Part shown: in pieces, positions 19,035 through 61,444 of the stretch | Position numbering within the stretch: position 1 is the stretch's first letter | Layout of the letters: every line of letters starts with the position of its first letter | From: Artocarpus heterophyllus | Lineage: Eukaryota > Streptophyta > Magnoliopsida > Rosales > Moraceae | NCBI GenBank assembly: GCA_025403435.1 | Contig: CM046327.1 | Span: 16,678,440 to 16,742,439, forward strand | Direction: 5' to 3' | DNA: 64,000 bases | Notes under the pieces: generated by a model | Databases searched by the model: none | Told to the model about the DNA's origin: nothing | What the model saw: the letters and a program-made list of their open reading frames with translations, nothing else | Program-made: the position numbers and the translations under genes

Positions 19035-19125
19035 ACCCAACTAAGACATCCTGTCCTCCACACAAAAGACTTAATCTTGAGGATTTTTTTCTCATATACA
19101 ACACATAATCTCGTCATATCAAACC

Positions 19126-19635
19126 ATGGCTTTTCCCAAGTGTTGCTTCATTCTATCAATGATCATAGCCTTCTCATCACTCTCAAGCAATGGAATCTTA
19201 GCGGCTCGCCATCTTTTAGACACACCGGCAGCTCCGCCACCGGCATTGGCGTTGCCGAAAATTCCATCTCTATCTATTCCTCCATTGCCCTCAGTTCCAG
19301 CATTGCCTAAACCCAATCCTTTGCCTCCCTTGCCTTCTACTCAATTGCCTACTCTTCCAACTTCCCCAACTTTGCCAAATCCCACAATTTCTCCATTGCC
19401 ATCTAACCCTTTGCCTACACTTCCCACAAACCCAAGTCTCCCAAAGCCCAACTTGTCACCTTTGCCAAGCTCTCAAATCCCAACTCTTCCAAACCCAGCC
19501 AACACTCCCTCAACTCCAAAGGCAACACTTCCTCCATTGCCAGCCACTCCTCTTCCCACTATCCCAACAACAATGCCTTCAATTCCCACCAATATTCCAA
19601 GTATTCCTTTCCTCTCTCCTCCACCATCTAATTAG
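19126..19635 (+). CDS. secreted LPxLP-repeat proline-rich protein (PELPK-like)
   Basis: A 169-aa intronless protein. Residues 1 to about 26 form a signal peptide (a hydrophobic stretch ending GILA), so the product is likely exported to the cell wall. The mature part starts ARHLLD. After an Ala/Pro segment it is almost entirely Pro/Leu/Thr/Ser/Asn repeats of the LPxLP and PxLPS type, with few charged residues and no Tyr-rich extensin SPPPP blocks. This composition is like the short PELPK/PRP cell-wall proteins of dicots; the exact role is unknown. A TATA box 92 bp upstream and a clean stop support an active gene. A duplicated, broken copy lies about 13.6 kb downstream in the same orientation. 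The 9-kb LTR element starts 340 bp after the stop codon, in antisense. Confidence 0.8.
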   Translation: MAFPKCCFILSMIIAFSSLSSNGILAARHLLDTPAAPPPALALPKIPSLSIPPLPSVPALPKPNPLPPLPSTQLPTLPTSPTLPNPTISPLPSNPLPTLPTNPSLPKPNLSPLPSSQIPTLPNPANTPSTPKATLPPLPATPLPTIPTTMPSIPTNIPSIPFLSPPPSN

Positions 19636-19975
19636 TTAAACCCCTTTTGAGATACCATTTGTTTATCTGGCTTACTACCAACCATTTATGAGTTCTTGAA
19701 TACACGTTTACACAGTTATTGGCTTGTGTCCTATCATCATTGTTTGAGGGAGTTTTCTTATATATTTTACATGTATTGTTTGATTTTACGTTTTCTTTTT
19801 ACATTTTGGGTTGGATGTGTATTTCTTTTTTATATGATTATTGTTGTATTTTGTTATCGTAGTAGTGAATAAAATATGTTGATTTGTCGTGGAGATATAT
19901 GTCATCTAATGTCTATATTGGATTGAATTTGTTATGAAGGATGAAAATACCGGTAAAAATTGACAAATAACTTTA

Positions 19976-22351
19976 TGTAACGCCCCTATATGGGGGTTAA
20001 CAGTTTTTAATGAGATAAAATAAAAATAAATAATAAAAGTAAAACCTTAAAAATAAAATTTGCCCGGGACTTAAATGAAAACTCTCAACTCAAAAATAAA
20101 AATATAAACGACAATTAAACCACAGTTTAATGTAGCACCTTAAATTTAATAATATAAACTGTTGTCATCATCATTTTAACCCTCAACACATTGTAATACA
20201 GTCACAGAAAGTAACAATTGATGCTTACATTATCATGAAGAACATTCTCAACGATTGAAGCAGTCCCAATGTAATATAGCTACCTCACTTCCTCAACTAT
20301 ATTTCTCGTAGCCACCTCACACTTAGTGAGTCCTGAAAAGATATAAACATAAGGGTATGAGCAACACTATGCTCAGTAGAGAAAGCCATTACTCACCTCT
20401 ATCATTACCACATTAAAATCTGCATGGTTAGTAAGTCACATCATATTTCAGATTATGAGGTTTATTATGATCACATCTTATGGATACCGTAGTTAATCAT
20501 TACCAAGTGTCATAATTACACATTTATACAAATATTACCAATCATCATTGTTCCTAGGTATCCATGTTAAATTGAGTATCACTCAACTCATCGAAACCCA
20601 AATGGGCGCACTTGATCACCCTATAAACATTCCAAGGGTGTTCCGGTGAGGGGACATCAAGCCCCGAGTCCTCACCAAATCGATTCCTGTACAGTGTGTT
20701 CTGGGACTTTCAACCCAAGGAAGCGTCATCGCCTTCCCCCTATTTTACCTTTTAGGGTATTCATGCCCAAGGACGTAACCGTCGCCCTCTTCATGTCTTA
20801 CAATTTCTCTATATTGAATCATTATCAATAGAGTTAGTTTTCCTAACCATGCTTCTCAATTTATAACATGTGTCAATTCATTATGTTCCTCGCCGTACAA
20901 TACAAGACGAGTCCATGTCATAGTTTCATATGTGATAATCATATAATATCAGTTCAACATAGATATATATATATTGCGGCAAAACAATCAATTTTAATTC
21001 TATAAAAACCTCACAAAAGATGAGTAATAGAATCCCTACCTTTCAAGCTTATCAACAATCTTTTAATCCTGGAATCAGTTAACGTTAGCTCCATACTCCC
21101 TTGATCTTGAACTCCAAGCAAAGCAGATCCAGTTGTATCTCGCTGTATCTACGAAGCATCCTCTGTAGTGCTCCTCGAGCGACTATGAATGGCTAGGAAT
21201 GCTTCCTGGAGATCATACATTCTTGAAAACGTCATTCTGGACTCCGATACTGCTGTTTGAATCGCCTCGATTCGCGTGCAGTCGGTACCGGATGATTTTC
21301 ATCGGAGAGGAATTTGCTCAAACGGAGGTCACCATTGCATCCAGAGCATCGAAACGAGTCAGGAGGCGGTCTCGGATCTTCGATCGGAGGTCCGGATCAC
21401 AAAATCCCATTTTGGCCTTTGACCGGCCGTTGACCGGCGTTGACCACCGTTGACCGGCGTTGACCGACTTTGACCGTCATTGACCGGCGTCAATCGGGGT
21501 CCGTTGGCAGCTGGGCTCGGGCCTACCCCCCCTAAATCGACCCTTCTGAGTCCAATGGCGGGGTCAATTTCACCCAATTCTGCCTCTAACATAGCGGGTC
21601 GTGAAGTACAACGTCGGTAGAAATGGATGAGCTCCGATCTTGATTCTCCGACGATGGAAACCTGAAATTGGCTGAGGGCTTTTGCTACCCATCCTCCTAT
21701 GAGCATTTCCCCTCACCCAATTTGAAGAAATGTGGCTGGGAAGGGCCAAAACGGAGGCTCCCGAGGCGGTTGACGGCGGCGTTGGCCGTTCTCCGGCGAA
21801 ACCGGCTCCTTCCGTGCAATTGATCGAGGGGTTTTACTCCCCTTGATCCTCTGAACTCATTGGGAGGGGTGGTGTCAGTCACCTCCTCCGGCAAGGCGGA
21901 GTTCCACCATGGGGGCGGCGGTGCACGGCGGCAATAGGCGGGCGGAGCAATCCGGCGGTTGTTGAGCTGCCACCAAGGGTGGGTTTTGTTCCTCTCATCA
22001 CGGTGGTCGTGTAGGAACAAGAATCATGTCGATCGGACGTCGGACGGCGAAGATATCTCGTCGGAAAGAAATGGGTTTTGCCGCCACTTTGGGCGGCGCG
22101 TGTGGTCTCCTCCGGCGGCGTTTTGGGCGGCGCGGCACCTCGTTGGACTCAGCTCGTCGAGAGCTTTCCATTGGTGCGGGAGGTGTCGAAAACGGATGCC
22201 GAAATCTCAGACGATCTTTGAGGAGAGAGAGAGAATTTTTTTAGAGAGAGAGAGAGTTTCGAATTATGAGAGATTTTCTGATTTTTTTATATATATACTA
22301 GGTAATTAATCTAATTATCTTAATACCCTTAGGAGAATAACGAGTGTCACA
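19976..22351 (-). repeat. 3' LTR of the 9.0-kb element
   Basis: 2376 bp, starting TGTAACGCCC and ending GTGTCACA on the plus strand. It is almost identical to 26607-28981. It contains a GC-rich core at about 21190-22210 that stands out from the AT-rich surroundings, with the W-box cluster inside it. ORFs of 61-116 aa on both strands here (for example 21359-21706, 21697-22020, 21959-22309) are repeated in the other LTR and have no known domain, so I do not call them genes. Confidence 0.95.
21419..21485. promoter_or_regulatory. W-box (TTGACC) cluster in the left LTR
   Basis: Seven TTGACC hexamers lie within 67 bp, mostly spaced about 10-11 bp apart (one helical turn), in a GC-rich context. TTGAC[C/T] is the core binding site of WRKY factors. 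This could make the LTR responsive to stress or defence, which is inference. Confidence 0.7.
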
Positions 22352-22367
22352 GCTCTACCCCCCTTAA
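22352..22367 (-). other. polypurine tract of the 9.0-kb element
   Basis: Read on the minus strand this is a purine-rich run containing AAGGGGGG followed by TAGAGC. It directly abuts the LTR start TGTGACAC. It is the expected primer for plus-strand synthesis and fixes the element's orientation. Confidence 0.8.
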
Positions 22368-23299
22368 AGAAATTTCGTCCTCGAAATTTCAATTCTAGTA
22401 ATACTAGTAAAAATTATGATTCCAATTCCGAGTCTAAACCGTTAATGTTGTTTATCTTCCAAATTTAAGTTATCGTATCTCCACTCATTTACTTGCATAA
22501 TAAATCTTACTCTAAATTCTAAATCCCTCAATGAGAGTATTTCTGACAAGTTTCAACTTATAACACCGTATAATAGTCTAAGAATCTGATCAGGCATACA
22601 TATTGACCATACCATGATTCCAGTCCTTCATTGTCCATGGACTGTGATTTACAATCACATTTAAGGAGATTGCTAGAGAAATTTTATATACTTCATCTTT
22701 AGCTTCCTTTTCCTTTTTGAGTAAGGAAAAGTCAAATATATTTGATTTCATACCTCAACTAATAAACTAAAACATAATCATAAAACATATATCACAAACA
22801 CTTTTATTCAAAACTATACATTAAACTTATTCATAGAGATATTAAACGGAATCTCTGGTTGCAAACATACCCGACATATTTTTCATTAAACAGCTATCCT
22901 CATGACACAAACATTCAACCCAAATAATATACTCATATTTCATATGGAATATCCCCATAACTGACTCTGGTACTTCCACATAATATTAACAGAATATTAC
23001 ACATTACAAACATAATACGGATACGTTTCGAGAGTACAAGGCACTCCGTACCCAGCTATCCATATCATGCATGCTTAGAGGATACAAAAACATCGATAAA
23101 CAAAAGATCGGACCTTAAGAAGAATGCGTTTCGAGAGCATCAAGTACTCCGTATCCAGCCATCCCGGCATTAGGCTCAATGAATCTAAAAGATTTAACAA
23201 CGACGTACCACAAGAAACACATAATACAAGGCAAACGGTTATTCGTAACACACGAAATACGGACACACATGCCTACATGCCAAAGATAAAACAAAAAGA
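22368..23299. other. element interior, non-coding, 3' of the LOG-like ORF
   Basis: This AT-rich stretch between the LOG-like ORF and the PPT has no ORF with domain content. It is where gag-pol remnants might be expected; none were recognised. Two related ~45-bp segments, near 23025-23070 and 23123-23165, share 'gtttcgagag' and 'actccgta' and form a short direct repeat. Confidence 0.5.
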
Positions 23300-23989
23300 T
23301 TACAGATGGAGATTCAAATCAATTGGCCGCTCCCGGCTTTCCCTTTCCCATTCAAGCTTGGATGTTGCAGTGTCGGATTCTGGATGTATGATTTGCATTT
23401 TATCTATCAATTCCTCAGCTGTTGAAGCAGTGACAAAGATTTGTCTCTCCGATTCTGTAGTGATGTTTTCTTCCACAGCGTAATCTAGAAATTTCAAAAG
23501 ACCGTCATAAAAACCCTTTACGTTCAGCAGACCCAAAGGTTTGGAATAAAAGCCCAACAATTGCCCACAAGCAACTATAAATATTTCCTCAAGAGTACCT
23601 AGACCACCAGGTAATGCTATAAAAGCATCAGAATTATAGATTATGTCTTTAAAATTTTTAGGGATACTCCTGACTCCTTCTCCCTTACCTATGGCTTCCT
23701 TACAAAGGTTTCCTTCAACTGGAATATGAGGCCAAATTCTTACATCAGTAGCGTCACTAGACCTAGCTGCTAGTGCCATATTTACCATCATTTTTATACT
23801 ACCACCCCCATAGATTATGTTAATCTTCTTGCGTGCTAGGACTTGCCCTAAGTGATTTGCAGCTTCTAAATAAGCTTTATCTTTTCCAAGGCTGGAACCA
23901 CAAAAGACACAGACATTCTTTATTTTCTTCGTGGACTGGGAGGTAGACATATTTGGTTTATAGAAGTGGTTGCTTAATGTCTGCTCCAC
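23300..23989 (-). CDS. LOG-like protein carried by the LTR element
   Basis: A 229-aa intact ORF. LOG enzymes release free cytokinin bases from cytokinin riboside 5'-monophosphates in the cytosol. Family features seen: VCVFCGSS (26-33), YGGGS (60-64), DAFIALPGGLGTLEE (121-135), KPLGLLNVKGFYDGLL (150-165), SKLEWE near 210-215. Changes: the usual GGGxxGLM reads GGGSIKMM, and the region of the RKAEM active-site motif reads IPKNFKDII (109-117), losing the Arg. The Glu of GTLEE remains. Activity is therefore uncertain. The last residues IDLNLHL match an EAR (LxLxL) repression motif, which is not a usual LOG feature. Plant LOG genes normally have several introns; this copy has none, consistent with capture of a processed transcript. 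Met14 is an alternative start. The ORF is in sense with the element and downstream of the Cys-rich ORF. The fold is sure; function is inference. Confidence 0.88.
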   Translation of the reverse strand: MEQTLSNHFYKPNMSTSQSTKKIKNVCVFCGSSLGKDKAYLEAANHLGQVLARKKINIIYGGGSIKMMVNMALAARSSDATDVRIWPHIPVEGNLCKEAIGKGEGVRSIPKNFKDIIYNSDAFIALPGGLGTLEEIFIVACGQLLGFYSKPLGLLNVKGFYDGLLKFLDYAVEENITTESERQIFVTASTAEELIDKMQIIHPESDTATSKLEWERESRERPIDLNLHL

Positions 23990-24592
23990 TTAGACTTCGG
24001 GTTCTACATGAGATTTTAAAGATGAGAAATATACAAAAAGGGCTAAAGAGATAGACGAGTAGGTAATGAAAAGGTAATCCAAAGATTTAAACAAAATCTT
24101 GTGCGGATAAGAAAGTAAGATAAGGTGATTGATAGTTTACAGAAAATCTGATTCACTTTTTGAAAAAGATTAGACTCTAATTGTATAACTTTTGACAATT
24201 GAGAACAATTTGACAGAAGACCCTCATGACACAACTGTAGACTTTTTGACAAATATACACCAAGTCTAGAAATTTAATATAAACGACAAATACTGTAGAA
24301 CTTTTGAAATTTGAGACACAAATCTTGAAATATCTGGATAAGCTTTTCAAAATTCAAACATATTACTGTACCGTATGTAATGTGTCTGATAAGATAATAT
24401 ATTTTATTATATATATATTTAAGAAATCATAAATTAAATAAGATATTAACACTTACTGTATCAATCTAATAGTCACAATTATTTCAAACACAAAAGCAAA
24501 TATTCAGAGTAAAAGAAAAACACAAACTGTTGAACATCAGCTAAAACTGCTTCAAATAAGTAAAGACTAAATAACCTTTATAGAGCGATGAC
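23990..24592. other. spacer between the two cargo ORFs
   Basis: A 603-bp AT-rich spacer. A 69-codon minus-strand ORF (24043-24252) has no recognisable domain. No obvious splice pair joins the two flanking ORFs, so how the downstream ORF would be translated is unclear (separate promoter, splicing or leaky initiation). Confidence 0.5.
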
Positions 24593-25114
24593 TTATTTCC
24601 CATCCAGTTTTCTTATGGCTTGGCAAACAGGATCTAGAAATACCATATTCCTGAGGCGTTGTCTTTCTGTATAAAATTTAGGCCAGAGTTTAAAAATAGC
24701 TCCTTGAACATATCCACTAGGGTGACCATGGAGAGGAGGATGGATGCTATCCAAGTTCTCCTTTGAAAGTCCATTCCTACAAAACCTTATTTTATCCTCT
24801 CTATTCGTAGACATATAACCAGGTGAAGTACATTTACCGTTACAATTTTGTCTTCCACATTTGTTACAAGTGACCACGATGGCACGAGCTCTTCTTTTCA
24901 TTGCACTACGACTGGTACCCGTTCCTGGTAAACCGACATCTTGACTAAAGTCACTCGGACGGATTTTCCCCTCTATTAACATTCTCACATCACAAGGGAT
25001 ACCAAAACGCATAAGAATCCACAACCGAGTAATTCTAGCCTTGTATTTCTTTCTGAGAATCTTTTGGGAGAGTGATGGGAAATACTTTCTCATGTGTTGG
25101 TACTTTGGGTCCAT
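24593..25114 (-). CDS. basic Cys-rich protein, possibly carlavirus NABP-like
   Basis: A 173-aa intact ORF upstream of the LOG-like ORF, in sense with the element. The N-terminal part is basic and partly hydrophobic (about 20-50). Then come a Gly/Ser linker, a basic cluster MKRRARAI (72-79), a Cys cluster with C83, C86, C91 and C95, the segment SPGYMSTN (97-104), and C112. The order of basic RRAR patch, CxxC, second Cys pair and PG-x-x-S-x-N resembles the small Cys-rich nucleic-acid-binding protein of carlaviruses (Pfam Carla_C4 type). This is a by-eye family resemblance, not a search result. The Cys spacing does not fit a retroviral CCHC zinc knuckle, so a leftover gag is less likely. The C-terminal 60 residues are unlike anything I recognise. 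A nucleic-acid-binding, possibly nuclear, role is inferred. Confidence 0.7.
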   Translation of the reverse strand: MDPKYQHMRKYFPSLSQKILRKKYKARITRLWILMRFGIPCDVRMLIEGKIRPSDFSQDVGLPGTGTSRSAMKRRARAIVVTCNKCGRQNCNGKCTSPGYMSTNREDKIRFCRNGLSKENLDSIHPPLHGHPSGYVQGAIFKLWPKFYTERQRLRNMVFLDPVCQAIRKLDGK

Positions 25115-26587
25115 GATGAGATGAAAGAAGAGTAAATAGAAAGGAAAAATTAAGATAGTAAATTGCAGAATCCTAGAATTCCTTCTTCTTTTAGAGGAAA
25201 AGAAGAATTTTTAATGAAAAAGAAGAGGATTTGCGATTTAAAGAGAAAATAACAAATTAAGAGAGAAAAAGTGAACTCGGAGAAATAAGCTCCTATGCAC
25301 AGTAAACGTATATGTAAACAATGATTAAACCACTGTATATGACACGTATAGAGACCACGTGGGAGAGACAGTGTGAATCAAACTGATTTAAGATTTGAAC
25401 TAGGCCCAAATGTTCTTAGTTGAAAATGGTCAGGTTGTTTCGGGCCTTAACACATTTAGAACGAGTTAAATAACAAACATAAAATTGAAAACCAATTCGT
25501 ATGAATCTTAAACCCAATTCAAAGCCCACTATAGATAAAGTTGACTATAAACAACAAATCTAATTTAACGACAACAAGGATCTTCCTGAATGATATTTAA
25601 AATCATTTCATAACAACATAATCTTCTAGCAACTCAAATAATTTTGTTTTAATCAAAACCTTATTGAACAATGCATACACCCATATGTTATTGATAATAC
25701 TCAACATCTATCAATGGATTCATCATCATTACTACCAAGGGTTTAGAATGCGACTAACCTTGAAATCAATACGATTTACGTCTTTCAACGTAGACCATAT
25801 CAATGAACAAAGACACTTGATGTTACTACTTAAGAACATCTACAATCCCCACAATTCTACTCATACAATATATAATTTCCTCATATAACAAAACCTTAGG
25901 TAACCAAAAGATTCACTGATACACTTAAATACAATGTACGTAACAAAATATTCCAATTTTGAGATTCATGCATTCTAGACTTTACACAGTCTCAATAGAC
26001 CAAAAGTCTAACATTTATCTCTCTCAAGATTCAATACCATGATTCCCAACTTATATCATATTCCTCAAAAATATAGAACTTTTAAGAAAAGACATTGACA
26101 CTTATGTGCTCCATCGAATCCACACATAATCATTACTTAGGTTTGAATCAATTACGAAAAATTTGGCATATCTATGTCAAACTTTAAAATCAATAAATCA
26201 AGCCTTATATTTCTCATTGTTTTTCACGAGACAAAAGGCTTTTAAATCCTCTTATCTATACGAATTTCTCATCGTTTATACGAATTAGATATGCTTATAG
26301 ATCCAAATATTATACGAATCTCTCATAAGCAATCTACTTATAAACTCATTCCATATAATTATCATTCCCTCATAACTATTAATACTTTCCTTCTATATAA
26401 TTATTGTACTCATATAACTATTAATATTTTCATTCTATGGCCTTTCCATGTTACATCCTTCTAGACTGTATAAATCAATGTGAAGGTTCATTTTGATGAT
26501 GACAATGAAAATTCAGCTTCAAAACCATCTCAAAAATATATATTTTTTTTAAAGTGGTGCTACACTCCCTAGGTTAACCGAACCTAG
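25115..26587. other. element 5' leader, no ORF recognised
   Basis: About 1.5 kb lies between the PBS and the first cargo ORF in element orientation. It is AT-rich without coding potential; the plus-strand ORF at 25664-25888 is antisense and lacks domains. It may contain packaging or dimerisation signals, but none can be identified by eye. Confidence 0.5.
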
Positions 26588-26599
26588 GCTCTGATACCA
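26588..26599 (-). other. primer-binding site, tRNA-iMet type
   Basis: The minus strand reads TGGTATCAGAGC, the standard complement of the 3' end of initiator tRNA-Met used by many plant LTR elements. It lies 7 nt inside the LTR boundary at 26607. This shows that the right LTR is the 5' LTR. Confidence 0.92.
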
Positions 26600-26606
26600 A
26601 AAATTC

Positions 26607-28981
26607 TGTAACGCCCCTATATGGGGGTTAACAGTTTTTAATGAGATAAAATAAAAATAAATAATAAAAGTAAAACCTTAAAATAAAATTTGCCCGGGAC
26701 TTAAATGAAAACTCTCAACTCAAAAATAAAAATATAAACGACAATTAAACCACAGTTTAATGTAGCACCTTAAATTTAATAATATAAACTGTTGTCATCA
26801 TCATTTTAACCCTCAACACATTGTAATACAGTCACAGAAAGTAACAATTGATGCTTACATTATCATGAAGAACATTCTCAACGATTGAAGCAGTCCCAAT
26901 GTAATATAGCTACCTCACTTCCTCAACTATATTTCTCGTAGCCACCTCACACTTAGTGAGTCCTGAAAAGATATAAACATAAGGGTATGAGCAACACTAT
27001 GCTCAGTAGAGAAAGCCATTACTCACCTCTATCATTACCACATTAAAATCTGCATGGTTAGTAAGTCACATCATATTTCAGATTATGAGGTTTATTATGA
27101 TCACATCTTATGGATACCGTAGTTAATCATTACCAAGTGTCATAATTACACATTTATACAAATATTACCAATCATCATTGTTCCTAGGTATCCATGTTAA
27201 ATTGAGTATCACTCAACTCATCGAAACCCAAATGGGCGCACTTGATCACCCTATAAACATTCCAAGGGTGTTCCGGTGAGGGGACATCAAGCCCCGAGTC
27301 CTCACCAAATCGATTCCTGTACAGTGTGTTCTGGGACTTTCAACCCAAGGAAGCGTCATCGCCTTCCCCCTATTTTACCTTTTAGGGTATTCATGCCCAA
27401 GGACGTAACCGTCGCCCTCTTCATGTCTTACAATTTCTCTATATTGAATCATTATCAATAGAGTTAGTTTTCCTAACCATGCTTCTCAATTTATAACATG
27501 TGTCAATTCATTATGTTCCTCGCCGTACAATACAAGACGAGTCCATGTCATAGTTTCATATGTGATAATCATATAATATCAGTTCAACATAGATATATAT
27601 ATATTGCGGCAAAACAATCAATTTTAATTCTATAAAAACCTCACAAAAGATGAGTAATAGAATCCCTACCTTTCAAGCTTATCAACAATCTTTTAATCCT
27701 GGAATCAGTTAACGTTAGCTCCATACTCCCTTGATCTTGAACTCCAAGCAAAGCAGATCCAGTTGTATCTCGCTGTATCTACGAAGCATCCTCTGTAGTG
27801 CTCCTCGAGCGACTATGAATGGCTAGGAATGCTTCCTGGAGATCATACATTCTTGAAAACGTCATTCTGGACTCCGATACTGCTGTTTGAATCGCCTCGA
27901 TTCGCGTGCAGTCGGTACCGGATGATTTTCATCGGAGAGGAATTTGCTCAAACGGAGGTCACCATTGCATCCAGAGCATCGAAACGAGTCAGGAGGCGGT
28001 CTCGGATCTTCGATCGGAGGTCCAGATCACAAAATCCCATTTTAGCCTTTGACCGGCCGTTGACCGGCGTTGACCACCGTTGACCGGCGTTGACCGACTT
28101 TGACCGTCATTGACCGGCGTCAATCGGGGTCCGTTGGCAGCTGGGCTCGGGCCTACCCCCCCTAAATCGACCCTTCTGAGTCCAATGGCGGGGTCAATTT
28201 CACCCAATTCTGCCTCTAACATAGCGGGTCGTGAAGTACAACGTCGGTAGAAATGGATGAGCTCCGATCTTGATTCTCCGACGATGGAAACCTGAAATTG
28301 GCTGAGGGCTTTTGCTACCCATCCTCCTATGAGCATTTCCCCTCATCCAATTTGAAGAAATGTGGCTGGGAAGAGCCAAAACGGAGACTCCCGCGGCGGT
28401 TGACGGCGGCGTTGGCCGTTCTCCGGCGAAACCGGCTCCTTCCGTGCAATTGATCGAGGGGTTTTACTCCCCTTGATCCTCTGAACTCATTGGGAGGGGT
28501 GGTGTCAGTCACCTCCTCCGGCAAGGCGGAGTTCCACCATGGGGGCGGCGGTGCACGGCGGCAATAGGCGGGCGGAGCAATCCGGCGGTTGTTGAGCTGC
28601 CACCAAGGGTGGGTTTTGTTCCTCTCATCACGGTGGTCGTGTAGGAACAAGAATCACGTCGATCGGACGTCGGACGGCGAAGATATCTCGTCGGAAAGAA
28701 ATGGGTTTTGCCGCCACTTTGGGCGGCGCGTGTGGTCTCCTCCGGCGGCGTTTTGGGCGGCGCGGCACCTCGTTGGACTCAGCTCGTCGAGAGCTTTCCA
28801 TTGGTGCGGGAGGTGTCGAAAACGGATGCCGAAATCTCAGACGATCTTTGAGGAGAGAGAGAGAATTTTTTAGAGAGAGAGAGAGTTTCGAATTATGAGA
28901 GATTTTCTGATTTTTTTTATATATATACTAGGTAATTAATCTAATTACCTTAATACCCTTAGGAGAATAACGGGTGTCACA
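26607..28981 (-). repeat. 5' LTR of the 9.0-kb element
   Basis: 2375 bp, nearly identical to the left LTR, with about nine substitutions and three single-base length differences counted by eye. Most lie in the GC-rich core and near the CT/GA and T runs. The promoter should lie here, but I cannot place a TATA box or start site with confidence. Confidence 0.95.
28049..28115. promoter_or_regulatory. W-box cluster in the 5' LTR
   Basis: The same seven TTGACC hexamers as in the other LTR, all intact in this promoter-bearing copy. Confidence 0.7.
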
Positions 28982-29161
28982 CTTTAGAAACAAAGAGAAA
29001 TTAATCTTTAAAAAAAAAAAAGGAAACGGCTATAATTTATTGATCACAATGATGAATTGTTAATTACAATATGGAAAATATAATCTGATATTTTGTCTAG
29101 CCAATAATTCTAGTCTTATGAGTGAAAGCATAACAAGTTAACGAGTAGACCGTTTTATTTA

Positions 29162-45377: not shown

Positions 45378-48300
45378 ATATGTGTAATGACCGGAAAAAA
45401 TCAAGAATTAATAAGTATGATTAATTAAAGATTTTTTTCATAATTACTCAGCTAAATACTTGAGAAAGTATAAGTTTAGAATTTATTAAAACATAAATTT
45501 GAAGGTCTTAATAGCTGTAAGACCTAAGAAACAAATAATATTGTGAATGCACAAATTTATGTGCTTTATTTATGAAACATGTAACACATGTAATGTTATA
45601 ATAGTAAACATGCTAAATTAAAAGTTTATGATGTCATGAATAATCCATGTGGTATGGATAAAGTTATGGAAATAATTTCATGATAGTATGAAAATCTTTA
45701 TAAAGCAATGATACAGCACGAGGATAGTTATGTATATGGGAATATTAAGTTTACGAATCAAAATTTGATCAAACCAACCACGACATAGTATAGGCATCAA
45801 AGACTAGTAATGATGCCTATATATACTTCAAAATGCAGAAGGAAAAGGAAATGCAAAAAAAAAAAAAAAAATCAAAATTCTCACTCTCTCTACACTCTTT
45901 CTCTCTCCTCCAACTCCGGTCAAGATTTCGGCATCTGTTTTTGACACCTTCCACACCAACGGAAAGCTCTCGACGAGCTGAGTCCAACGGTGTGTCGTGC
46001 CGCTCACAACGCCATCGGAGGAAGCCGCACGTGCTGCCCAAAGTGGCAGTGAAACCCAAAACTTTCTAGCTAGATATATTTGTCGTCCGACGTCCGATCA
46101 ATGTGATTCTTGTTCCTACATGACCACCATGACGAGAGGACAAAATCCACACAGGCTTGCACCTCAACCATCGCTAAAGAGCTCTGTCCATCTACTACCG
46201 TTGTGCGCCACCGCGGAGCTCGTCGACTTTGCACTTCTGGCCACCATTGAGGTCAATTGACCTTACCGATCAAGGGGAGTGAATTTCCTCAATCAATTTC
46301 ACCGAAGGACGCTGCCTCGTCGGACTTCCATGAACGCCGCCGGCCACCACCATGGATGGTTGCATTTTCTTCAAATCTGACGGCTTCAACTCAAATTGAT
46401 GAGGGGGAAACACTCAAAGGAGGATGGATAGCAAAAGCCCTCGGCCAATTTTAGGCCAAAATAGCCGGAGCACAGCTGCCTAAGCCACCATTTTTAGCCA
46501 AGATTGTGGAGTCTGACCTGCTATGTTAGAGGTGAAATTGACACCGTCATTGGACTCAAAAGGGTCAAATTAGGGGGTAGGCCCGAGCTCAGTTGCCAAC
46601 GAAGTCCGGTCAAAGCCGGTTAATTGTGACTTTGGGATTTTGTGATCTGGACCTCCGATCGACGATCTGAGACCGCCTCCTGACTCATTTTGACACTCTA
46701 AATACGATGGTGACCTCCGTTCGAGCTAATTTTACTTCGATAAAAATCATCTGGTATCGATTGCACGCAGATCGAGACAATTCAAACTACAATAACGGAG
46801 TCCAGGATGACGTTTTCAGCAATGTATGATCTCTAAGAAGCATTCCTAGCCATTTGTGGTTGCTCGAGGAGCACTACAAAGGATGCTTCACAAACTATAG
46901 ATACAACGAGATACAACGAGATACAACTAGACCCATTTAGCTCGGAGCCAGGTAAGTAGGAATCTCGCCTAGAGTGTGAATAGTTTTTAAATAAAATGTT
47001 TTAAATGTGTTCATAAAAAGTTATGAAAATGCATGAATGGTGAATTGTTGCACTGTGTATGTTATGATGTACTGTTATGTTATGATAATTTGAATTATTA
47101 TGTTATGATGTGCCTTGTCATGTGTTGGTATGATCATGTAAAGTGATGAACGCAGTATGGATTTGCAATAATTATGTTTAAAGTATGTTTGCATTTTATT
47201 AATGCATAATGTTTTACGGCTTAAGTTATAAATTTAAAATTGCATTTATTATGCAATAAGTTTTAGAGTACAAGTTATAATTTGCAATTGAGTTTGCATA
47301 TAATGTGATAGCATTTAATATGCTCACTAAAACTAAAAAAAAGGTAAAACAAAGATAAAAAGGAAGTGTCGTGCCAGCCTCCTTGTTGTGAGATACTCAA
47401 AGCAAAGTTAAAGTTATGACCTCAGTGTTCGATGGTCTTAAGTCTTCCACAAGAGAAGCATTATGTTTATGATCTCATGATTAATGATGTTGGTATGAAT
47501 ACAAAAGTTTATAAGATGAGGAAAGTTATGGAACAAAGATAAGAGTTAAAATAAAGAATAAATGATTATAGGATGTTCATAATTAAGCATAAAACAAGTT
47601 AATAAGACAACATAAAATGTTCATGCATACTATTTTTATTAAAATAATTTTTTTTTTAAAATTATATTTTGCGAGATTGATTTCCGACTTGCTGAGCACA
47701 AGATCATTTAAGTATGTTCATATTATAGGTAAGAAAACCTGTCAGTGACATTAATGGGCAGTGGTGAGCGGTGGACGAATGGTGGAGATGGGTATGGATA
47801 TCACTACGCAGTTTATAATGTTTCCGCATCATGAGTTTACGAATTTATGTATGTTTCTGTTTACATTAAATGTTATGAAAAACATTTTTATGTTTTCAAG
47901 GAAAGTTTTATGAAGGACATTTCATGAAAAACGTATTAAAAATGTTTAATGAGAAACATTTACGAAAAACGTTTTAAAAGAAAGAACTTTATGAATATGT
48001 TTTATGAATTTATTAATATGAAAGTTTACATAGTTATGCTTTGAGAAATTATTATGATGGTTTTAAGAAAGTTTTAAAAAGCATTTATAATGATTTTATT
48101 CCATCATTTGATTTAAAATTCTTTTGAAATAGTTTTATTTACATAAAGAAATGTTTTAAAGAAAGAGGTTTCTAAAATAATTATTCTTATGTTCAAAGGA
48201 AATGTTTTCTACTATTTGATATAGTGTTTTCAAAGTTTTAAGAAAAATCAAAGTTTTAAGAAATGTTTTTAAAGTTTTAAGTTATATTTTACAAAATGTT

Positions 48301-56376: not shown

Positions 56377-56647
56377 TGTTGAAATATTCAGGTATTAAAG
56401 AATGATTTAGTCAACCATTCTATATTAAAAAGACTGATTTATTTTTTAATCTTTAGTTGATTTCTATCATAATATCTTAATTTCTAACAATTGACAGATC
56501 ATGGCCTGCATGCTTAATATTTAGGATTGATTTCTAGGATTGATTAGTTTTTCTTTCTATGCAAAAAAAAAAAAAAAACTGTATATATATGTTGTGTTGT
56601 TCTGAAAAGATTATGAAGAATTCTTAATCATTTTTCTCTCAAAGTCA
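56377..56647 (+). repeat. 5' LTR of the copia element
   Basis: It starts TGTTGAAATATTCA and contains a poly-A run near 56563-56578 and the stretch actgtatatatatgttgt. It pairs with 61121-61393. The end at 56647 is chosen at the last CA before the PBS. Confidence 0.85.
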
Positions 56648-56669
56648 ATTTTTTGGTATCAGAGCTAGG

Positions 56670-59600
56670 TTGCTCAAAAATACCTCTTCATTATCGTTTT
56701 CTTTTCCTCTTTACGTTGCTGTCCTTTACATAACAGTGAGTTCTGAGACTAATTTAGGTAAAGATGCATCTTCATCTACTACCTCCAGTCTAATCAGCTC
56801 GTCTGTGGTCGCGCAGCCCTTTGGAGAAGGATCGTCACTGCAGATCACAAGTCACAGGTTGGATGGTAAGAATTTCCTCCAATGGTCCTAATCTGTCTTG
56901 TTGGTAATTAGAGGAAGAGGAAAACTTCGTTACATCACCGGCGAGATTCAACGTCCAAACACAAAGGACCCAACTTACGCAAATTGCGAACTTAATAACA
57001 CGCTTGTTATGGCATGGCTGATTAACTCAATGGAGCCACATATTAGCCGTACCTATTTGTTTCTTGAAACTGCTAAAGCAATATGGGATGCTGTCAGAGA
57101 GAATTATTCAGACCTCGAAAATGCCTCACAAGTTTTCAAGTTAAAGAATAAACTCAAGGATATTCAACAAGGTAATTTGGATATCATTGAATACTACAAC
57201 ACATTACAAACACTTTGACAGGAGTTGGATATGCACTATGAGGCAGATTGGAGTGATTTGGAAGACAACATGAAGTTTAAGAAACATCTAGAGAAGGAAT
57301 GCTTGTATGAGTTCATTGCTGGTCTCAACAAGGAGCTTGACGAGGTTCGTGGACGAATTCTAGGCTTAAGACCTCTACCATCTATTGGTGAAGCCTTTGT
57401 AGAAGTAAGGCGTGAAGCAAGTAGGCGCCGAGTCATGCTTGGGGATAAAAAGGACTCACACAAAATCTCAGGGAGCGAAAGACCTATAGACAACACTGCA
57501 CTTGTCACAAAAAATAGTGCCAACCGACCCATTGGAGACCAGAAATCCAATCAATGTCTGTTGTGCTCTCATTGCAATAGACTCGGTCATACTCGAGAAA
57601 AATGCTGGGACCTTCATAGGAGACCTGCAGATGCAAAACCATGAAGACAGAGTCAATCCAAGTTTTTTTCAAACAGCTTTAGAGGAGAAGTTTGATGAAC
57701 CAAACAACACTGGAGTGTTTCTGAACAAGGATTAGTTCGAGCAGTTATGCAAACTGCTGAATTAGCAAAGTGTGACCAAGTTCAACACTTCTACGAGTAA
57801 TTTTGCTCATCAAGGTACTGCCCTTCATGTGCAAAAACAAACTCCTTGGATATTTGATTCTGGTACATCAGATCATATGACAGGTAATCCATCTCTTTTT
57901 TACACCTATACACCATTTCATGAGACCTCAAGAGTAAAAATAGCATATGGAACGTTCTCTTCTGTTGCTGGAAAGGGTTCTATTCATTTTTCAGAATCTC
58001 TTTTTCTACATTATGTACTTCATGTTCCCAAATTAGCATGCAACCTTGTATCTATTAGCAAACTAACTCAAGATCTTGACTGCACTGCTAATTTCTCTAC
58101 CACTTCGTGTCAAATACAGGAGTAGGGATCGGAGAGGATGATTGGCATTGCTAAGGAGGGTGGTGGACTTTACTATTTCGAAAATGGTGATCGTGTGGAG
58201 AGGCAGGCTGCTATGGCTGAGAATAGTCTTTCTTCTGTTTCTAATAAGGATGTAATAATGTGGCATCGTAGGCTAGGCCACCCTAATTTTCATTATCTTA
58301 AACGTTTGTTTCTAGATTTGTTTATCAATAAAAGTCTCAATTCTTTTACTTGTGAGATTTGTCAATTAGCCAAACATACACGAACATCATTTCTAGCCAA
58401 ACCATACAAAGAGTCTCATCCATTTTCCCTTATTCACAGTGACATTTGGGGGCCTTCTTGAGTAAAAAATATCTCAGGTACTAGATGGTTCATTACATTT
58501 ATCGATGACCACACTAGAGTATGTTGGGTTTGGCTCTTCAAAGAAAAATCAGAGGATGCAAAAAATTTTCAAAATTTTCACTCCGTGGTAAAAAATCAGT
58601 TCCAAACTTCAATCAAAGTCTTAAGAACTAACAATGGAAAAGAATATTTCAAATCCATCTTAAGTGAGTATCTAGCAACCGATGGCATCATTCGTCAGAG
58701 TTCTTGTACAGACACACCACAACAAAATGGTGTAGTTGAGAGAAAAAATCGTCATCTACTTAAAGTTGCTAGAGCACTTATGTTCACTATGCATGTTCCT
58801 AAATATCTCTGGGGTGAAGCTATTCTGACAGCCTCGCATCTTATAAACCGCATGCCTTCAAAAGTACTCAAGTTCAAGACCCCTATGTCTGTCCTTCTTT
58901 AAATCTATCCATTATTCTGGTCTTTCTCTTTTGTTCCTCTTAAAACCTTTGGTTGTATAGCGTTTGTTCATGTCCATTCCCAAAACCATTCAAAACTTGA
59001 CCCAAAATCAACTAAGTGTGTTTTTATTGGGTACTCATCCATACAACGGGGTTACAAGTGTTACTCACGTTCCCTTCATCGAGTATTTGTGTTAATGGAT
59101 GTCACATTTCATGAATCTGAACCATTTTTCCCAAAGTCCTATGTTCATGGGGAGATTCTAGAGAAAGATGAGTCTTGGGATGAGCCTACTCCTAAAGCGT
59201 TAAACTTGTCACCTCCTTCCCTACCCAATATAGTCGAGCCTATAATGCCACAATTAGAACAAGGAAAAATGTTGGAAACAGGAGGAGATAATCCTCAAGT
59301 CCCACAGTTGCTTGTTTATGCACGCAGGAATCGTTCTCAAAATAATAACAAACCTGATATCCAGCAAGGTCAAGCATCTGACCCAGTTCAAGTTCCTCTT
59401 CCGAGTTCTGAGCCCTCTGGTAGTAAAGTGAACGAGGACTTGAATTTTAATTTGGACATACCTATCGCTCACAGGAAAGGTACAAGGTCGTGTACACAAC
59501 ATCCCATTTCAAAATTTATTTCATATGAGAAGTTATCTCCAAAGTTTTCAGCCTTGACCACTACTCTGACCAAGATTGAGATACCAAGAGATATCAAGGA

Positions 59601-61110
59601 GGCTCTTACAAACCCAAAGTGGAGATTGTCTATTCAGGAAGAAATGGGAGCATTAGAGAAGAATGGTACATGGAAGATTGTGGAATTGCCCAATGGAAAG
59701 AAAACAGTGGGATGCAAGTGGGTATTCATAGTCAAGTTCAATACTGATGGTAGTATTAACCGATACAAGGCGAGGCTTGTTGCTAAAGGCTTCACTCAAA
59801 CATATGGGTTAGACTACAAAGAAACATTTTCCCCCGTAGCAAAACTCAACTCAGTTAGAGTTCTCTTATCTCTAGCGGCAAAACTTGATTGGCCTCTTCA
59901 GCAGTTAGATGTAAAAAAGGCCTTTTGAAATGGAGATTTACATGAAGAAGTGTATATGGATCCTTCTCTGGGGTTTGAAAAGGGGGGTAATCTGGTGTGT
60001 AAATTGAGGAAATCATTATATGGCTTGAAGCAATCTCCAAGGGAGTGGTTTGAGAGATTTACACGAGCTGTAAAAGGTCGAGGATTTGAACAAGCACAGT
60101 CGGATCATACTCTTTTCTACAAACATTCTAAGAATGGAAAAAGAGCCATTCTTATAGTGTATGTAGATGATATAATTATTACTGGTGATGATCACACAGA
60201 GTTGGAGTCATTAAAAAGGTATCTAGCTGGTGAATTTGAGTTAAAAGATGTAGGTGCTCTCAAATAATTTCTAGGCATGGAAGTTGCTAGAAGTGGTGTA
60301 CGAATTGTTGTTTCTTAGAAAAAGTACATACTTGATCTTCTAAAGGAAACATGTATGATAGGGTGTAAACCAGCTGAGACACCTATGGAACCGAATGTTA
60401 AACTCAGGCTTAAGGCTGGTAAGGAGGTTAATCAAGAGCAGTACCAAAGACTTGTAAGTAAACTTATCTACCTATCACACACTCGTCTAGACATAGCCTT
60501 TGCAGTAAGTGTTGTTAGCCAATTCATGCACATGCCTAAGGAAAGACACTTCGAGGCAGTCTACAGAATTCTAAGGTATCTAAAAGGTACTCCTGGAAGA
60601 GGTTTGTTTTTCAAGAAGGGAGGTCACAGGATGGTGGAAGTCTATACTGATGCTGATAGGGTAGGTTCCTCTGTGGACAGGAGATCAACTTCAAGATATT
60701 GCACGTATGTCTGGGGTAACTTAGTGACTTGGAGAAGTAAAAAGCAATCGGTAGTGGCTCGAAGCAGTGCAGAGGCAGAATTTTGAGCACTTGCACACGG
60801 GATTTGTGAGGGGATATGGCTCAGGAGATTATTAGAAGAATTGAAGATCTCTAATGAATTTCCTATGAAGCTCTACTGTGATAACAAGGCAGCTGTTAGC
60901 ATCGCACATAATCCAGTTCATCATGATCGAACGAAGCATGTAGAAGTTGACCGTCACTTCATCAAAGAAAAAATTGATAAAGGGATTGTTTGCATGGTAT
61001 ACATTCCAACTAAGGAATAGACTGCCGATGTCTTAACAAAGAGCCTTCATAAGCCAAATTTTGAAGACATGGTGAACAAGCTAGGAATGACAAACGTTTA
61101 CATTCCAGCT
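56670..61110 (+). pseudogene. copia gag-pol polyprotein, broken by many stops
   Basis: Domains in order: gag (SHRLDGKNFLQW to about 57450), CCHC knuckle CSHCNRLGHTREKC (about 57570-57606), protease with WIFDSGTSDHM (57847-57879), pre-integrase HHCC (WHRRLGHPN, CEICQLAKH), and integrase core with HSDIWGP, RTNNGKEY and NGVVERKNRH. The second catalytic Asp of integrase is Asn. Then RT ([12 protein letters not shown].. to YVDDIIITGDD near 60160-60190) and RNase H (VYTDADRVG, SSAEAEF, HDRTKHVEVDRHF). In-frame stops or shifts occur near 56889, 57216, 57642, 57733, 58123, 58459, 58900, 59926, 60265, 60316, 60784 and 61018. It cannot make a full polyprotein. Confidence 0.93.
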
Positions 61111-61120
61111 TGAGAGGGAG

Positions 61121-61393
61121 TGTTGGAATATTCAAGCATTAAAGAATGATTTAGTCAATCATTCTATATTAAGAAGACTGATTTATTTCCTATCTTTAGT
61201 TGATTTCTATCCTAATATCATAATTTCTAGCAATTGACAGATTATGGCCTGCATGCCTAATCTTTAGGACTGATTTCTAGGATTGATTAGTTTTCCTTTC
61301 TATGCAAAAAAAAAAAAAAAAAACTGTATATATATGTTGTATTATTCTGAAAAAGATTATGAAGAATTCTTAATCATCTTTCTCTCAAAGTCA
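61121..61393 (+). repeat. 3' LTR of the copia element
   Basis: It starts TGTTGGAATATTCAAG directly after the PPT and ends CTCAAAGTCA. It matches the 5' LTR with about 93% identity by eye. Confidence 0.85.
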
Positions 61394-61444
61394 GTTTTTT
61401 ATACTAGCGATACTACCATGTCTCTTTGCATTATAGCATCTTAC

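Follow-up and report, generated by a model that had tools for sequence, protein, structure and literature searches.

Extra open reading frames (ORFs) with YgdH/LOG domains were reportedly described in plant Ty3/gypsy elements by Steinbauerova et al. in 2011, as cited in PMC9289625. That paper itself places YgdH (LOG) domains within the Ty3/gypsy consensus sequences of two species of Citrus and, under less strict filtering, of Populus trichocarpa. The same source describes orchid Ty3/gypsy elements of about 25 kb that retain Gag and Pol and carry a gene for an AlkB RNA demethylase. An element flanked by long terminal repeats (LTRs) at positions 19976-28981 of a 64,000-nucleotide stretch of Artocarpus heterophyllus DNA (contig CM046327.1; the whole stretch is called the window) has something in common with each of these systems. 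It shares a LOG-family domain with the Citrus and Populus elements, from which it differs by the absence of gag-pol, by an adjoining ORF related to viral nucleic-acid-binding proteins (NABP) and by the loss of LOG active-site residues. With the orchid elements it shares an RNA-acting accessory gene of a kind also known from flexiviruses, although the gene is a different one and Gag and Pol are not retained. The element is probably a recent insertion of the large retrotransposon derivative (LARD) type, with a chromovirus-like primer binding site (PBS) and no gag-pol, which carries two accessory genes circulating among plant Ty3/gypsy elements.

The element is complete and non-autonomous and lies on the minus strand. 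Its parts are as follows:

19971-19975, no strand: target site duplication (TSD) CTTTA, left copy, from the sequence and LTR-boundary comparison
19976-22351, minus strand: LTR of 2376 bp at the 3' end of the element, 99.5% identical to 26607-28981
22353-22365, minus strand: polypurine tract (PPT) AAGGGGGGTAGAG, with one T, adjoining the 3' LTR, from the sequence
23300-23989, minus strand: LOG-like ORF with C-terminal IDLNLHL (LxLxL), matched by PF03641 (E 1e-21) and by PDB 2a33 in sequence and fold
24593-25114, minus strand: NABP-like ORF, 173 aa, with a basic KRR patch and C-x2-C-x4-C-x3-C, from a family of 855 proteins
25115-26586, minus strand: long non-coding leader between the PBS and the NABP ORF, with 38 ATGs over 25115-26606
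26587-26599, minus strand: PBS TGGTATCAGAGCC, from the sequence, presumably matching tRNA-iMet
26607-28981, minus strand: LTR of 2375 bp at the 5' end of the element, from the LTR alignment
28982-28986, no strand: TSD CTTTA, right copy, from the sequence and LTR-boundary comparison

A preliminary description of this DNA had reported a perfect 5-bp TSD, near-identical LTRs, a PBS, a PPT and two uninterrupted sense ORFs of 173 and 229 codons in an internal region free of retroelement enzymes, and had called the element young and LARD-like; all of this was borne out, the absence of retroelement enzymes within the scope of the Pfam scan given below. The LTRs differ by 9 mismatches (8 transitions and 1 transversion) and 3 gap positions. 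Their Kimura two-parameter (K2P) distance of 0.0038 corresponds to roughly 0.15-0.27 million years at substitution rates of 1.3e-8 and 7e-9. Read along the minus strand, the order is PBS, ATG-rich leader, NABP-like ORF, LOG-like ORF, PPT (22365-22353) and 3' LTR, and both ORFs stand on the element's own strand, that is, in sense. The excess of transitions among the LTR differences (8 of 9) is the pattern that mutation of methylated cytosines would leave in an element under silencing. An older, partial and degraded LTR of the same kin is present at 45869-46917 in the opposite orientation, with 71-82% identity to LTR positions 1157-2290.

Within the 4.3-kb internal region, the longest stop-to-stop open stretches measure 229 and 205 codons. 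Both exceed what was obtained when the region was simulated 1000 times under a first-order Markov model, where the longest stretch averaged 93 codons and reached at most 191, and the second longest reached at most 124. A Pfam scan took in the two ORFs and, from the 24 remaining open stretches of 45 codons or more, ten; these ten gave no match at E<=0.1, and within that scope neither retroelement enzymes nor gag-pol were found. LARDs are non-autonomous elements recognised by paired LTRs, PBS, PPT, TSD and a multi-kb interior in which gag-pol is not found, and the present element shows each of these features, with intact LTRs. Unlike LARD-type elements generally, it has two open, family-conserved sense ORFs.

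The lineage of the element is suggested by its primer. The PPT region presumably resembles the end of a chromovirus (Tekay) pol, a likeness not used as evidence. The PBS (26599-26587), which we take to be complementary to tRNA-iMet, fits the chromovirus type, and on this assumed match the element is likely, though not proven, to be a chromovirus (Ty3/gypsy) derivative, because plant non-chromoviruses do not use such a primer. According to the available text of Neumann et al. (PMC6317226), tRNA-Met primers serve most chromoviruses as well as Ty1/copia lineages and are absent from plant non-chromoviruses; the PBS is therefore not decisive, since Ty1/copia elements are also primed by tRNA-Met.

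The identities proposed earlier for the two ORFs, one LOG-like and one of a Cys-rich nucleic-acid-binding type, were supported. For the NABP-like ORF, a single-sequence search returned 15 proteins, and a profile built from them returned 855 at E<=0.01, the best 120 of which were listed. Carriers among the matches listed include Hibiscus, Xanthoceras, Populus x canadensis, P. alba, Acer, Rhamnella, Orobanche minor and O. hederae. The Pfam family Viral_NABP was matched by 43 of 59 sampled members and Carla_C4 by 40 of the 59, both at E<=1e-3. The window copy retains the basic patch K73 R74 R75 and the cysteines C83, C86, C91 and C95, and the zinc-type cysteines are conserved in 116-125 of 126-127 aligned rows. 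In a tree built from 32 of the 127 rows, the window copy forms a fully supported clade with P0001, P0002 and P0003, split from the other 28. These family-level matches indicate that the NABP-like protein is homologous to the cysteine-rich/NABP proteins of flexiviruses. Like the cysteine-rich proteins (CRPs) of carlaviruses, allexiviruses and mandariviruses, it combines a basic patch with a Cys cluster behind it, and matches to PF05515 and PF01623 occur across the plant family. Unlike the viral CRPs, the plant proteins are about 180 aa long, have a conserved C-terminal half and the spacing C-x2-C-x4-C-x3-C, and are encoded in plant DNA elements.

A profile scan of genome contigs yielded one NABP locus, L001, a 3330-bp contig from a record titled as a Nomurabacteria metagenome-assembled genome, which we infer to be plant DNA mis-binned with the bacterium. 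Its integrase ORF at 194-1594 is of Ty3/gypsy type (rve 2.3e-16; Integrase_H2C2 1.2e-12). An NABP ORF starts 192 nt past the integrase stop, in the env position (ATG at 1787 or 1799, end at 2347), and encodes a 186-aa protein that scores 34.2 bits against PF05515 Viral_NABP (E 3.3e-8, above the cut-off) and 19.8 bits against PF01623 (cut-off 20.9). A purine tract follows near 2600, about 250 nt behind the NABP ORF, and the database entry P0139, identical in protein sequence, is assigned to a contig of 10,263 bp. The integrase is presumably akin to Athila/Tat, for which the sole check is that no chromodomain match was found in L001. Between the integrase stop and the NABP start, at 1628-1661, a long pyrimidine-rich tract ending in CAG looks like a 3' splice acceptor, which would suit expression of the NABP gene through a spliced env-type RNA.

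The window and L001 NABP frames are identical at 99, 119 and 76 of 172 first, second and third codon positions, respectively (Fisher p 4.7e-5). Nonsynonymous and synonymous divergence (dN and dS) amount to 0.47 and 2.81 by NG86 and to 0.44 and 1.41 by LWL85, so that dN/dS is about 0.17 or 0.31, with dS near saturation. Because third positions diverge most and dN/dS is 0.17-0.31, the NABP reading frame is judged to be under long-term purifying selection at the protein level. This selection apparently spans two clades of Ty3/gypsy elements, provided that both the PBS rule and the presumed placing of the L001 integrase are correct. The preliminary description had stressed that both ORFs stayed open through recent mobilisation. 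They are indeed intact; as evidence of retention, however, their openness since insertion carries little weight, because few mutations are expected at an LTR divergence of just 0.4%. Selection is indicated by deep conservation instead.

The LOG-like ORF has 229 codons when counted from a GTG; from the first ATG, at 23950, it encodes 216 aa, the length of its database form P0016. The PF03641 match is accompanied by a nearest solved structure, PDB 2a33 from Arabidopsis (At2g37210), recovered both by sequence (E 2.3e-43) and by fold (E 3.1e-17; the structure model has a predicted local distance difference test score, pLDDT, of 73.5). The search scored 8000 candidates and retained 7762 relatives, the best 120 of which underlie the residue and LxLxL counts. 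The window copy keeps the fold and the PGGxGTxxE motif (as PGGxGTLEE). An arginine before this motif and the GLMG loop have a catalytic role in LOG proteins. In the window copy, N112 replaces an R found in 111 of 119 relatives, K66 a G found in 115 of 119, V69 a G found in 100 of 116, and a G takes the place of a W found in 114 of 119. The arginine and the residues of the glycine loop that are lost here persist in 86-97% of relatives. Across residues 59-118, 30-residue windows are 13-30% identical to the consensus, compared with family means of 71-83%. A double frameshift was considered for this stretch and rejected: relatives align with it gap-free in the frame of the ORF, whereas over 66 codons the two alternative forward frames are interrupted by 8 and 12 stops.

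The LOG-like copy is probably a pseudo-enzyme. Cytokinin activation by it is unlikely, because the conserved arginine and GLMG loop are lost, residues 59-118 are divergent without a frameshift, and the copy sits on a long branch. The earlier suggestion that the element brings its own cytokinin modulator is accordingly disfavoured, and both a non-catalytic role and relaxed constraint are possible. LxLxL is the EAR repression motif. After 8 of the 120 rows lacking the anchor motif were dropped, 112 remained, including the window form, and 88 of these end in an LxLxL tail (P0016-P0135), which is missing from 5 of 5 Solanaceae LOG rows. The predicted EAR motif in the LOG-like tail is a putative binding site for a TOPLESS-type corepressor. 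The database entry P0016 groups 8 member sequences from 12 contigs, a hint that more than one copy exists.

The element would be transcribed from its own LTR, and its RNA would be packaged and reverse-transcribed by the enzymes of an autonomous relative. As a tentative further step, the NABP-like protein would enter the nucleus or bind RNA and weaken the silencing that the host imposes on the element or on its helper. For the LOG-like protein the leading possibilities are a regulatory role without catalysis, exerted by binding a corepressor of the host, and decay; each of these fates, taken singly, we hold to be unlikely. Among the roles open to the NABP-like protein, that of an anti-silencing or regulatory factor appears most likely by analogy with viruses, and it may shield the element against silencing or change transcription in the host. 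In the available part of PMC12172455, carlavirus CRPs are commonly silencing suppressors, as is one mandarivirus CRP; p12 of Chrysanthemum virus B is both a weak suppressor and a transcription factor that induces hyperplasia; and a nuclear localisation signal and a zinc finger are common to mandarivirus and allexivirus CRPs. A broader proposal, which we consider doubtful, is that a flexivirus-type suppressor/zinc-finger gene may be a long-standing env-position gene of plant Ty3/gypsy elements, both chromovirus-type and non-chromovirus, across eudicots, where it would act as their own counter-silencing factor. In the present element it would be joined with an EAR-tailed LOG pseudo-enzyme in a two-gene cassette that has outlived the loss of gag-pol, with the non-autonomous element supplying counter-defence and a helper giving the enzymes, and the virus and retroelement versions would form one gene pool.

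Several results weigh against a LARD-type element with two circulating accessory genes. Joint carriage of the NABP-like and LOG-like ORFs is seen in one element, and L001 is one contig with a bacterial label that may be mis-binned or chimeric. The window NABP copy itself reaches 16.2 bits against Viral_NABP PF05515 (cut-off 23, E 0.01), as well as 12.9 bits against PF01623 (cut-off 20.9). When the alignments were compared with viral contigs, 54 stretches matched for NABP and 35 for LOG, with 0 confirmed as relatives in either case. The NABP structure model is poor (pLDDT 66, predicted template modelling score 0.38), and its 13 matches in BFVD include none at E<=0.001. The LOG-like copy stands on a branch of 1.45 changes per column, with weak placement, in a tree of 43 of 121 rows. 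In neutral substitution-only simulations (no indels), with half or all of the divergence placed on the window branch, the NABP frame remained open in 103 and 23 of 1000 runs and the LOG frame in 40 and 3; frame retention alone is thus only moderate evidence.

Four of the 13 non-significant BFVD matches come from plant viruses that we take to be betaflexiviruses and bear the name of a silencing suppressor, an NABP or a 15-kDa protein. A search of solved structures for the NABP family gave only two chance-level matches (E 0.33 and 0.36). Fold evidence from the NABP model was set aside, as the model is too poor.

The strongest competing explanation, although improbable, is a one-off transduction, in which a LARD-type element took up a processed host LOG transcript and a fragment of an endogenous virus, both neutral and still open since the insertion is young. 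The 0.4% LTR divergence fits this account, as do the lost active-site residues, the divergent stretch 59-118 and the long branch of the LOG-like copy. However, both ORFs hold frame at about 37-62% identity to aligned relatives (near-identical P0016 and P0001 excepted), the divergent LOG stretch is gap-free while the alternative forward frames are closed by stops, and the NABP frame shows codon-position constraint relative to L001, whose copy follows an integrase. A one-off capture of junk is less likely because both families occur in several plants and an NABP relative lies in a Ty3/gypsy-type contig.

Improbable as well is the view that both ORFs are ordinary host gene families captured by the element, NABP being an old domesticated virus gene and L001 a chance neighbour. 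Annotated plant proteins do belong to both families, for example Populus 'LOGL10'. Against this stand the position of the L001 NABP ORF, so close behind the integrase and followed by a purine tract, and the reported YgdH/LOG domains inside Citrus and, with the looser filter, Populus Ty3/gypsy consensuses (available part of PMC9289625). In addition, Reevesia pubescens contributes 12 of the 120 listed LOG-like proteins, and their locus labels, which resemble chromosome names, are of 10 kinds, as a mobile element would produce. Least probable is the reversed direction, in which plant retroelements are the original home of the gene and the source of the flexivirus NABP: the family is large and diverse (855 matches, with the four-row window clade split from the other 28), but viruses of two families carry the NABP protein (available part of PMC12172455), and the tree contains no viral sequences.

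LOG domains in Ty3/gypsy elements are already published (PMC9289625, available part), and no report of an NABP-type gene in such an element was found. A literature search by titles and abstract starts, with most subscription papers outside its coverage, returned no NABP-type gene in a retrotransposon or plant genome. The available text of PMC9289625 counts 15 unusual domains, nine of them named in its text section, and an NABP type is possible among the unnamed rest; 'carla' occurs 0 times in that text. In their available parts, a review of extra ORFs (PMC7264820) makes no mention of YgdH, lysine decarboxylase or nucleic acid binding, and an account of RNA-virus sequences in plant genomes (PMC3136472) names a single case from plus-strand viruses, a sequence in cucumber that resembles a betaflexivirus replicase.

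Plant LTR elements are restrained by RNA silencing, and the extent of the counter-measures they carry is an open question. A gene family common to RNA-virus silencing suppressors and plant retrotransposons would, if real, offer a direct and testable candidate for such a counter-measure, and would point to gene exchange linking plant RNA viruses with Ty3/gypsy elements. A non-autonomous element that keeps such genes after the loss of gag-pol would further imply a division of labour between elements.

Two other features were observed in the window. An open frame at 19081-19632, ending about 340 bp before the element, encodes a proline-rich repetitive protein with no Pfam match at E<=0.01. At 56377-61400 lies a decayed Ty1/copia-type element, bounded by LTR-like repeats at 56377-56654 and 61121-61400 that are 91.8% identical; its coding frames are broken, and one of them matches RVT_2 and a retroviral SH3-like domain.

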